A DNA stretch of 64,000 nt from a virus. The notes below the pieces were generated by a model. That model was not told the DNA's origin. It saw nothing but the letters and a program-made list of their open reading frames with translations, and made no database searches. Shown here piece by piece: positions 61,097 to 62,780 of this stretch. The stretch covers positions 1 through 64,000 of the IMG/VR virus record IMGVR_UViG_3300027082_000001; one strand, written 5' to 3'. A program made the position numbers and the translations under genes. Each line of letters begins with the position of its first letter. Position 1 is the stretch's first letter.

Positions 61097-61888
61097 ATGG
61101 AAATGACTGAAAACATGGTCGAAACTCAGCGAAATCTTGAGGAACTGTTCCATCGGAATCAGTTGCTGGATGTACTGCGTGAGCAATTCCAGCCTCTGAC
61201 TGATGACCCGTTCAAACTCGACTGTGTGGTACAGATCTACCTGCACAAGCAGGCTGATGTACCAACCATGGTGGGACTGTTCAGCCCGAAGTGGGGAACA
61301 CCACAAGAAGTGGCTGAGATGCTCAAGGAAGTCGTGGAAGATGACCTCATCGACTTCAACATGGAACACATGAAGTTCGTGTTAAAGTACGAGATCACTG
61401 CTGATGTGGAAGAACAACTGGCCAACTACCAGTTTCCTCTGCCAATGGTGGTTCCACCTCGCAAGGTGCAGAACAATCACATGGGCAGTGGCTACATCGA
61501 CCGTCGTGGGAAAATCATCCTTAATGGATCTGATGTCTTCGACGACGAAGACGTATGTCTCGACCATATAAACCGAGCCAACAGTGTCGGTCTGTCTCTG
61601 AACATGAATGTCATCGCATCTGAAGAAGGTCACATGATCCTACCCAAGAGAAAGATCGGTGAGAGCTTCGACGAATTCCAGAAGCGTCAGAAACAAGCCA
61701 AGGTGTTCTATGAGAACTCTATGAATGTCATGCAGGGACTGCTGACTCTCGGAAACGAGTTCTGGCTGACATGGAAATATGATAGACGTGGAAGGTCATA
61801 CTGTGTAGGATATCACGTAAACGCACAAGGAACGGAATATAACAAAGCGGTCCTTGAGCTTCACAACAAAGAGGTCATTACAGGATGA
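61097..61888 (+). CDS. RNA polymerase subunit 1 (N4 gp15-like), 3' end remodelled by HNH insertion
   Basis: A 263-residue protein, near N4 gp15 (269). The C-terminal part (LTWKYDRRGRSYCVGYHVNA, then QG) with Asp229-x-Arg-Gly-Arg233 matches the DxRGR motif region of T7 RNAP. It forms the N-terminal portion of the two-subunit phage RNAP that transcribes middle genes; the catalytic palm is in the gene starting at 63730. Start: ATG 61097 follows AGGAG; GTG 61046 is in frame but lacks support. The last 16 codons are a second, recoded version of a sequence still present after the HNH gene at 62408-62458. It overlaps the HNH start by ATGA. Confidence 0.88.
   Translation: MEMTENMVETQRNLEELFHRNQLLDVLREQFQPLTDDPFKLDCVVQIYLHKQADVPTMVGLFSPKWGTPQEVAEMLKEVVEDDLIDFNMEHMKFVLKYEITADVEEQLANYQFPLPMVVPPRKVQNNHMGSGYIDRRGKIILNGSDVFDDEDVCLDHINRANSVGLSLNMNVIASEEGHMILPKRKIGESFDEFQKRQKQAKVFYENSMNVMQGLLTLGNEFWLTWKYDRRGRSYCVGYHVNAQGTEYNKAVLELHNKEVITG
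61838..61888 (+). repeat. New RNAP-1 C-terminal segment (copy 1)
   Basis: 17 codons encoding YNKAVLELHNKEVITG and stop. Same reading register as copy 2 (62408-62458): 12 of 16 residues and about 35 of 51 bases identical, with many differences at third codon positions. This copy is the one joined to the RNAP gene. Confidence 0.85.
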
Positions 61889-62412
61889 AAACAAAACCAC
61901 TTCCATCACAAGCTGAGTTATGTGAACTGCTTGAGTATGATCCAGTCACTGGATCTCTCAAGTGGAAACCAAGATCTGACAAATACTCAGATTATTTGAG
62001 GTTCAATAAACGACATGCAGGACGTGAAGCATTTACTTGTGTCTCACGAGGGTATCGCACAGGATCGATTTATGGAACTAACTACAAAGCTGCACGAGTG
62101 ATTTGGAAAATGATTCATGGACATGATCCAGAAATCATTGACCATACTGATGGCAATAAGCTCAACAATCGATTGAGCAATCTCATCAACACTACACAAG
62201 CTCAAAATACCAAAAACCGAGCCAACTACAAAAACAATACATCCGGTTATTCGGGTGTATCTTGGATTACTCGACTTCAGAAATGGCAAGTGACGACTGG
62301 TGGTGCGAAGAATCGCAAATACCATGGCACGTATGCTGATCTTGATGAAGCAATCAAAGTTAAACAACAAGCAGAAAAGGATGAACAATACCATGCAAAC
62401 CATGGACGATAA
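61885..62412 (+). CDS. HNH homing endonuclease with AP2-like DNA-binding domain
   Basis: A 175-residue protein. The N-terminal 40 residues (LLEYDPVTGSLKWKPR) and PEIIDHTDGNKLNNRLSNLI with the His-Asn-Asn core are typical of HNH_3 endonucleases; NNTSGYSGVSWITRLQKW and the following GTYADLDEA form an AP2/ERF-like domain that recognises DNA. It starts by ATGA overlap with RNAP subunit 1. Its last few codons (HANHGR) are read from the abandoned end of the RNAP gene in a different frame. It is a mobile gene that targets a conserved polymerase locus. More AT-rich than neighbours. Confidence 0.9.
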   Translation: MKTKPLPSQAELCELLEYDPVTGSLKWKPRSDKYSDYLRFNKRHAGREAFTCVSRGYRTGSIYGTNYKAARVIWKMIHGHDPEIIDHTDGNKLNNRLSNLINTTQAQNTKNRANYKNNTSGYSGVSWITRLQKWQVTTGGAKNRKYHGTYADLDEAIKVKQQAEKDEQYHANHGR

Positions 62413-62458
62413 CAAAGCTGTGCTCGAACTGAGCAGAAAGGAAGTCATCAATGGCTGA
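62408..62458 (+). pseudogene. Remnant of the original RNAP-1 3' end (copy 2)
   Basis: Codons for DNKAVLELSRKEVING and a stop, in the register of the RNAP gene but cut off from it by the HNH gene. Similarity extends upstream to a Gln five codons before the Asn (QTMDDNK versus QGTEYNK). The stop overlaps the start of the next gene (AATGGCTGA), as expected for the ancestral arrangement. Confidence 0.8.
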
Positions 62459-62780
62459 TCGTAGCTATTTCCCGATGGACGATCTTCGTAAACTCATGGA
62501 CGTAGAGTTTGTGAACAAAAGCAAGATCACCTGCATCAAACATCTACGTTCAATGACAGGAGAAAATCTGAGGGAAATCAAAGACTTCTTCGAACAAGAG
62601 TGGTTGCCATTCATCAATGGCACTCGCACACCACCGAAAGAGATCAAAACCTACATCAGTGAAACTCCTGAATTTGAAGCACTTGTGCAGCAGGTTCGGA
62701 AACTCTCTGAAGAGGTCGATTCTCTCAAGTCCATGAACACACGTTCACGGACAGCAACCATCTTCAACGATGAGGAGTAA
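62451..62780 (+). CDS. Protein with ribosomal L7/L12 C-terminal-like domain
   Basis: A 109-residue protein. Residues about 22-50 (KITCIKHLRSMTGENLREIK, then DFFEQ) follow the pattern K-x-x-x-I-K-x-x-R-x-x-T-G-x-x-L-x-E-x-K of the ribosomal protein L7/L12 C-terminal domain, which in bacteria contacts translation factors. A coiled coil (LVQQVRKLSEEVDSLKSMN) follows and could dimerise it. It starts inside the remnant of the RNAP gene with AAGGAAG upstream. It might touch translation or be an adaptor for the phage RNAP; both are inference. Confidence 0.7.
   Translation: MADRSYFPMDDLRKLMDVEFVNKSKITCIKHLRSMTGENLREIKDFFEQEWLPFINGTRTPPKEIKTYISETPEFEALVQQVRKLSEEVDSLKSMNTRSRTATIFNDEE

Follow-up and report, generated by a model that had tools for sequence, protein, structure and literature searches.

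Arrangement of the locus

How does a free-standing endonuclease gene come to lie where an essential RNA polymerase gene ends, between two versions of that gene's last codons? The usual view is that homing endonucleases can survive inside essential genes only by way of an intron, an intein or an intergenic gap. The locus that raises this question lies in a 64-kb stretch of DNA (hereafter called the window) out of a 73,612-base IMG/VR virus record. The window phage is an N4-like roseophage; the annotated phages closest to it belong to the Rhodovirinae (Schitoviridae), for example Sulfitobacter phage EE36phi1 and Ruegeria phage V12. Its RNAP1 was related to those of N4-like phages by tblastn, and it matches the solved N4 RNAP1 structure (PDB 6dt7) with an E value of 2.7e-89.

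Table 1. Features at the 3' end of the RNAP1 gene (positions in the window)
Feature	Position	Strand	Basis or remark
RNAP1, whole gene	61097-61888	+	TGA at 61886-61888
RNAP1 (N4 gp15-like subunit, RNA polymerase II), resident part	61097-61768	+	tblastn; PHROG 2166, E 3e-92; PDB 6dt7
Foreign recoded 3' end of RNAP1 (copy 1, putative 'rescue' block)	61769-61888	+	identity changepoint, GC3
HNH endonuclease gene, 175 aa	61885-62412	+	Pfam HNH_3 PF13392, PHROG 99, I-HmuI 1u3e
HNH_3 domain, residues 68-109, IIDHTDGNKLNNR	62086-62211	+	Pfam
Weak AP2-like stretch, residues 120-150, possible DNA-binding domain	62242-62334	+	sub-threshold Pfam AP2
Copy 2, abandoned native RNAP1 tail, DNKAVLELSRKEVING-TGA	62408-62458	+	identity to V12 tail; displaced-tail test
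AAAGGAA, Shine-Dalgarno-like, within copy 2, for next gene	62437-62443	+	sequence reading; V12 likewise
Next gene, weakly L7/L12 C-terminal domain-like	62451-62780	+	PF00542 below cutoff; PHROG 23470

RNAP1 ends with YNKAVLELHNKEVITG, and its stop codon overlaps the ATG of the HNH gene (ATGA, from 61885). The upstream version of the tail (copy 1) encodes the T/DxxGR motif region TWKYDRRGRSYCVGYHVNAQGTEYNKAVLELHNKEVITG. The downstream version (copy 2) is in register with RNAP1; the HNH gene takes its stop codon (TAA, 62410-62412) from the first bases of copy 2, whose end is overlapped by the ATG of the next gene. Local alignment of the RNAP1 tail with the downstream DNA gave a score of 56 (z 8-9.4) that 0 of 60-300 shuffles reached, which rules out chance similarity of the two tails. 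The layout and this alignment confirm the first-pass annotation, which had described an HNH gene at the 3' end of RNAP1 with a replacement C-terminus, the old tail being stranded behind it and containing the HNH stop codon. A group I intron or an intein holding the HNH gene, with copy 2 as the downstream exon, might be considered, since HNH_3 genes are frequent in group I introns. However, the RNAP1 frame is complete and has its own stop before the HNH gene, and Rfam gave no match up to E 1 at the locus and none at the gathering threshold in EE36phi1 (L001) or in L015, which rules out this arrangement; we give it practically no credence.

The match of the next gene to PF00542 scores 20.7 bits, under the cutoff of 25.9. 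Short genes with weak likeness to the L7/L12 C-terminal domain are found 3' of RNAP1 in several roseophages. In EE36phi1 (L001:2662-2760) the gene 3' of copy 2, which is L7/L12-like in relatives, is shortened to MADSKHTTLDELSDGNIERKTNG.

Copy 2 and the empty allele

It had been predicted from the window alone that an allele without the insertion would run from RNAP1 through a copy-2-like tail straight into the next gene. This allele exists: a single copy-2-like tail was found in the HNH-free phages V12, DSS3phi2 and R7L and in the IMG/VR phage L023, the closest relative of the window phage by RNAP1 (92% aa identity). The RNAP1 C-terminus is DYNKAVLELFRKEVING in V12 and DSS3phi2 and DYNKAVLELSRKEVING in R7L, and V12 RNAP1 joins the next gene directly through a AATGGCTGA overlap, as does copy 2 in the window. 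Of 48 bases compared with the V12 RNAP1 tail, copy 2 shares 43 in the window and 46 in EE36phi1, whereas copies 1 and 2 of the window agree at only 33 of 48. EE36phi1 has the same layout as the window, and its copy 2, DYNKAVLELSRKEVING, is the native tail of R7L. HNH-free relatives carrying both copies, which would have refuted the interpretation, were not encountered, save for the odd case of L073 (see below).

Copy 2 may be more than debris, if it is still translated or holds the ribosome-binding site of the next gene. AAAGGAA lies 7 bases before the ATG of that gene in the window, and GGAGG is found in the Agrobacterium phage OLIVR1, which has the same layout (see below); in addition, an in-frame ATG lies ahead of copy 2 in the window and in EE36phi1. 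OLIVR1 copy 2, by contrast, is without an in-frame ATG, making a shared peptide role unlikely. We hold a function for copy 2 to be a minority possibility, though a serious one, and its ribosome-binding form is compatible with the main explanation proposed below. The AAAGGAA ahead of the next gene is common to copy 2 and V12, and the end of the copy 1 block carries a purine-rich AAAGAGG ahead of the HNH start, so that the genes to either side apparently stay expressed after insertion.

A recoded RNAP1 end with a sharp left boundary

Changepoint analyses located the left edge of the foreign DNA. Compared with HNH-free L023, window RNAP1 shows 89.3% nucleotide identity until 118 bases before the stop codon and 63.6% thereafter (LLR 21.7). 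Between EE36phi1 and HNH-free V12, identity is 91.5% until 121 bases before the stop and then 66.9% (LLR 22.7). The two changepoints are at most 3 bases apart, at TTC TGG CTG AC/A (slash, changepoint), and the junction in native RNAP1 3' end DNA reads CAAGGCAC/TGACTAC. Downstream of the changepoint, the block DNA differs by 33-36% from the native DNA of HNH-free relatives, mostly through synonymous changes (e.g. CGT CGT GGT CGT to AGA CGT GGA AGG), with few amino-acid substitutions, such as H to W and D to E. In the window and EE36phi1, respectively, GC3 is 0.36 and 0.26 in the block, 0.32 and 0.31 in the HNH gene and 0.61 and 0.54 in the RNAP1 body (Fisher P of 0.005 and 0.002 for block versus body); native blocks have GC3 values of 0.49-0.69. 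The block is thus close to the HNH gene and far from the RNAP1 body in GC3, indicating that it belongs with the former.

From these data the unit spans about 61769-62407, i.e. approximately 640 bases. The mobile unit inferred in the first-pass annotation is thus supported; its left edge had been placed at about 61.84 kb, whereas the changepoint falls at 61769-61771 (~61.77 kb), some 70 bases earlier, and the foreign RNAP1 segment, taken to be 16-20 codons, is about 40 codons long. The accompanying claim that insertion removes the original site holds for the 64-67 native bases upstream of the junction, which are lost, but not for the remainder, which persists as copy 2. The unit replaces the native 3' end of RNAP1 up to a sharp left boundary, strands the last 16 native codons downstream, and is present in some and absent from other close relatives. 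Simple divergence after a tandem duplication was rejected as the main account because the identity drops sharply, and does so about 65 bases before the duplication starts. The recoding could be the ordinary divergence of an AT-rich donor rather than a selected trait. No donor of the block came to light: an exact pattern search of IMG/VR gave EE36phi1 only, and HNH searches of IMG/VR and GTDB genomes yielded no additional RNAP1 unit.

As a separate observation, the native DNA corresponding to 61769-61860 is 82% identical between genera among HNH-free relatives, versus 68% for the RNAP1 body, with the conservation partly at synonymous positions.

The HNH protein and the site

The HNH protein belongs to the HNH_3 family (PF13392; 40.7 bits, cutoff 24.8) and matches PHROG 99 with an E value of 1.8e-52. 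Its active-site motif DH..GN..N is intact (IIDHTDGNKLNNRLSNL in the window), with D86, H87, G90 and N99 invariant in the alignment, and it is related to the homing endonuclease I-HmuI (1u3e; E 0.001) over the HNH region only. The AP2-like stretch remains under the cutoff (Pfam AP2, E 0.11; 3igm AP2 chain, E 0.68). The gene is probably a DNA-cutting selfish gene, although there are no cleavage or homing data. The last 60 residues of RNAP1 align with the T7 and mitochondrial RNA polymerases and constitute what we take to be the T/DxxGR region required for catalysis; the enzyme is therefore located at a stretch of DNA that leaves the phage little room for change.

Probable separate entries into two roseophage lineages

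The window and EE36phi1, both HNH-positive, are 73-76% identical at the nucleotide level in their RNAP1 bodies, 88% in the block and 98% in its first 48 bases. Their HNH genes are only 73% identical, arguing against a recent transfer from a single source. As the divergence of the HNH genes is similar to that of the RNAP1 bodies, one ancient insertion might be common to both roseophages, the HNH-positive allele having been lost in V12 and L023 and the block having diverged in place. Nevertheless, divergence in place would not give a sharp step from 90% to 65% shared by both phages, and the differences in copy 2 appear to have arisen while it was coding. Indeed, 6 of 48 bases differ between the two copies 2, affecting five codons, and all the changes are synonymous; the probability of this outcome under neutral drift after one insertion is between 4e-5 (uniform) and 3e-4 (transition-biased). 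We consider a single ancient insertion improbable. The synonymous-only differences suggest that the remnants diverged while they were working RNAP1 ends; judging from these sequences, the unit most likely entered the window and EE36phi1 lineages separately. Alternatively, copy 2 remains under coding constraint. Between the copy 1 blocks of the two phages, eight codons show synonymous and three show non-synonymous differences, which is what a translated end should show.

The same layout in Agrobacterium phage OLIVR1

In OLIVR1, RNAP1 ends with IEFAHGELVED and is followed by an HNH gene and then by VEFAHGELLED-stop, which overlaps the ATG of the next gene (displaced tail z 7.7-9.3). A single tail is present in each of the HNH-free relatives ZX86 and L098; that of ZX86 continues into a homologue of the OLIVR1 next gene, and that of L098 has TTGGAGGATTAA in common with OLIVR1 copy 2. 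OLIVR1 copy 2 matches the L098 tail at 29 of 36 bases and copy 1 at 27 of 36, counts so close that they are weak evidence by themselves. The last 40 codons of OLIVR1 RNAP1 have a lower GC3 (0.30 versus 0.51, P 0.017). The left boundary could not be placed because the nearest empty relatives are just 65-66% identical in RNAP1 protein, and the recoded part may comprise only the last ~14 codons.

The OLIVR1 HNH protein is 41% identical to that of the window. In a tree of 14 HNH proteins it groups with those encoded 3' of RNAP2 in Pectobacterium phages (support 0.98), apart from those of the window and EE36phi1, and the layout thus seems to have arisen more than once at the RNAP1 site. In the Pectobacterium phages CB1 and Possum (L054:2001-2534 and L046:2001-2534) the related HNH gene lies 45 bases after RNAP2.

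Survey of RNAP1 ends and the accretion alternative

Among 73 distinct RNAP1 3' ends, an HNH_3 gene together with a displaced tail was found in the window, EE36phi1 and OLIVR1. In L080, RNAP1 is followed by an HNH gene but no displaced tail, and one end (L073) has a displaced tail around a gene without any nuclease. In this IMG/VR N4-like phage (L073:3337-3735), the RNAP1 end AVIEFTDRELVT is followed by a DUF5983 gene and a displaced VIEFTDKEIVQ-stop that overlaps the next start codon. The displaced-tail matches in L030 and L077 (z 4-5) were discarded as chance-like, the former being the start of RNAP2 and the latter a poor match 1.4 kb off. No displaced tail was found beside ten HNH relatives at other genes (0/10), ruling out displaced tails as a general habit of this HNH family.

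L073 bears on the possibility that the locus results from passive gene accretion. In this scenario a phage with RNAP1 and an HNH gene in their normal order recombined with the window lineage through a homologous left crossover in RNAP1 and an illegitimate right one in the tail, the foreign tail being mere flanking DNA and the HNH gene having no role in its own spread. With L073 as a nuclease-free example of tail displacement, ordinary accretion is not excluded. A published precedent is the YungJamal gene 60 insertion in cluster O mycobacteriophages (PMC4351075), which has on its flanks, as in the window, an intact native copy of the end of the upstream gene and a second copy with synonymous changes; unlike in the window, the duplicated stretch spans only 24 bases and the inserted gene, of unknown function, is on the opposite strand, with no nuclease named. 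However, L073 represents just 1 of the 73 distinct ends, while two backgrounds have nearly one left boundary, the layout occurs again in OLIVR1, and an HNH gene is there every time. We therefore regard accretion as unlikely, if somewhat less so than a single ancient insertion.

Proposed mechanism

The explanation that we favour, with reasonable though not full confidence, is that the locus contains a free-standing HNH homing-endonuclease unit carrying a recoded rescue end for the last ~40 codons of RNAP1; cleavage and homing are inferred. The presumed target is the 3'-terminal stretch of phage RNAP1 that encodes the conserved catalytic T/DxxGR region. In a co-infecting phage, the HNH protein would cut the native RNAP1 3' end, and repair would copy both the block and the HNH gene, using the RNAP1 body as the left homology arm and copy 2 together with the next gene as the right one; neither step is supported by cleavage or homing data. 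The recoded block would keep RNAP1 whole: the unit brings its own recoded gene end, so that insertion would not break the essential polymerase. Its difference from the native sequence suggests that the block may also resist the enzyme, for which there are no resistance data, and since it would not pair with the native tail, repair could not end before the HNH gene.

More broadly, and only tentatively, phages might carry natural home-and-rescue drives, that is, HNH enzymes targeting RNA polymerase catalytic-motif DNA and accompanied by an evolved, cleavage-resistant recoded end, with at least two origins at one RNAP1 site; we would rate this generalization somewhat below an even chance. Purely as speculation, past rounds of such invasion may even be the reason why the N4-type polymerase is divided into two genes here.

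Relation to known systems

The closest natural parallels are mobile endonuclease ORFs with foreign C-termini in fungal mitochondria, in Allomyces macrogynus atp6 and Glomus atp6, atp9, cox2 and nad3 (PMC3630166). There, as in the window, an in-frame foreign C-terminus encodes nearly the same protein, an endonuclease ORF follows, and the displaced native C-terminus is the better match to that of the close relative. The window unit shares with them an in-frame foreign C-terminus whose DNA has diverged while the protein stays similar, and a displaced native C-terminus nearest to the empty relative; the site is occupied in the window and EE36phi1 and empty in L023, V12, DSS3phi2 and others. It departs from them in that the fungal enzymes are of the LAGLIDADG or GIY-YIG type and mitochondrial, whereas here an HNH enzyme is found in lytic Schitoviridae phages at the RNA polymerase catalytic-motif region. 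The first-pass statement that such self-restoring units are little described is accordingly valid for phages within the open-licence literature, but not for fungal mitochondria.

Among phages, the available parts of the reports on T4 MobA and MobE depict free-standing HNH genes beside or inside essential genes, with start-stop overlaps and presence or absence among relatives (PMC2988022); in contrast to the window unit, these insertions split genes or sit between them, and no replacement tail is described in those parts (PMC2988022, PMC5009743). T4 mobA with the gene 60 bypass insert also combines a homing endonuclease with a sequence that perhaps protects against cleavage, but this is a non-coding bypassed insert rather than a recoded coding end (PMC5009743). 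Rescue tails are not described in the accessible portion of a survey of phage homing genes (PMC10448857), and the authors of the EE36phi1 genome gave ORF8 only as an extra endonuclease (PMC2784036). We found no phage report of a nuclease with a displaced tail in the open-licence literature; an earlier report elsewhere is possible.

The design recalls the synthetic HomeR element at Drosophila PolG2, which also targets the conserved 3' end of an essential gene and has a re-coded 3' end in the insert and homology arms on both sides (PMC7968924). HomeR is an engineered Cas9 drive in flies, whereas the window unit is natural, resides in a phage and has not been shown to home. In the window, a free-standing enzyme appears to survive in an essential gene by means of its own recoded end, which is the home-and-rescue design of engineers. 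If cleavage were confirmed, the isolates (EE36phi1 versus the V12/DSS3phi2 type) would offer a natural, tractable system in which to study the movement of essential phage genes between lineages and the evolution of homology arms, rescue tails and resistance.

HNH-like genes without displaced tails also lie directly 3' of RNAP1 in the N4-like contigs L033 (3825-4300), L034 (3850-4200) and L080 (3313-3900), and the site therefore seems to attract endonuclease genes.
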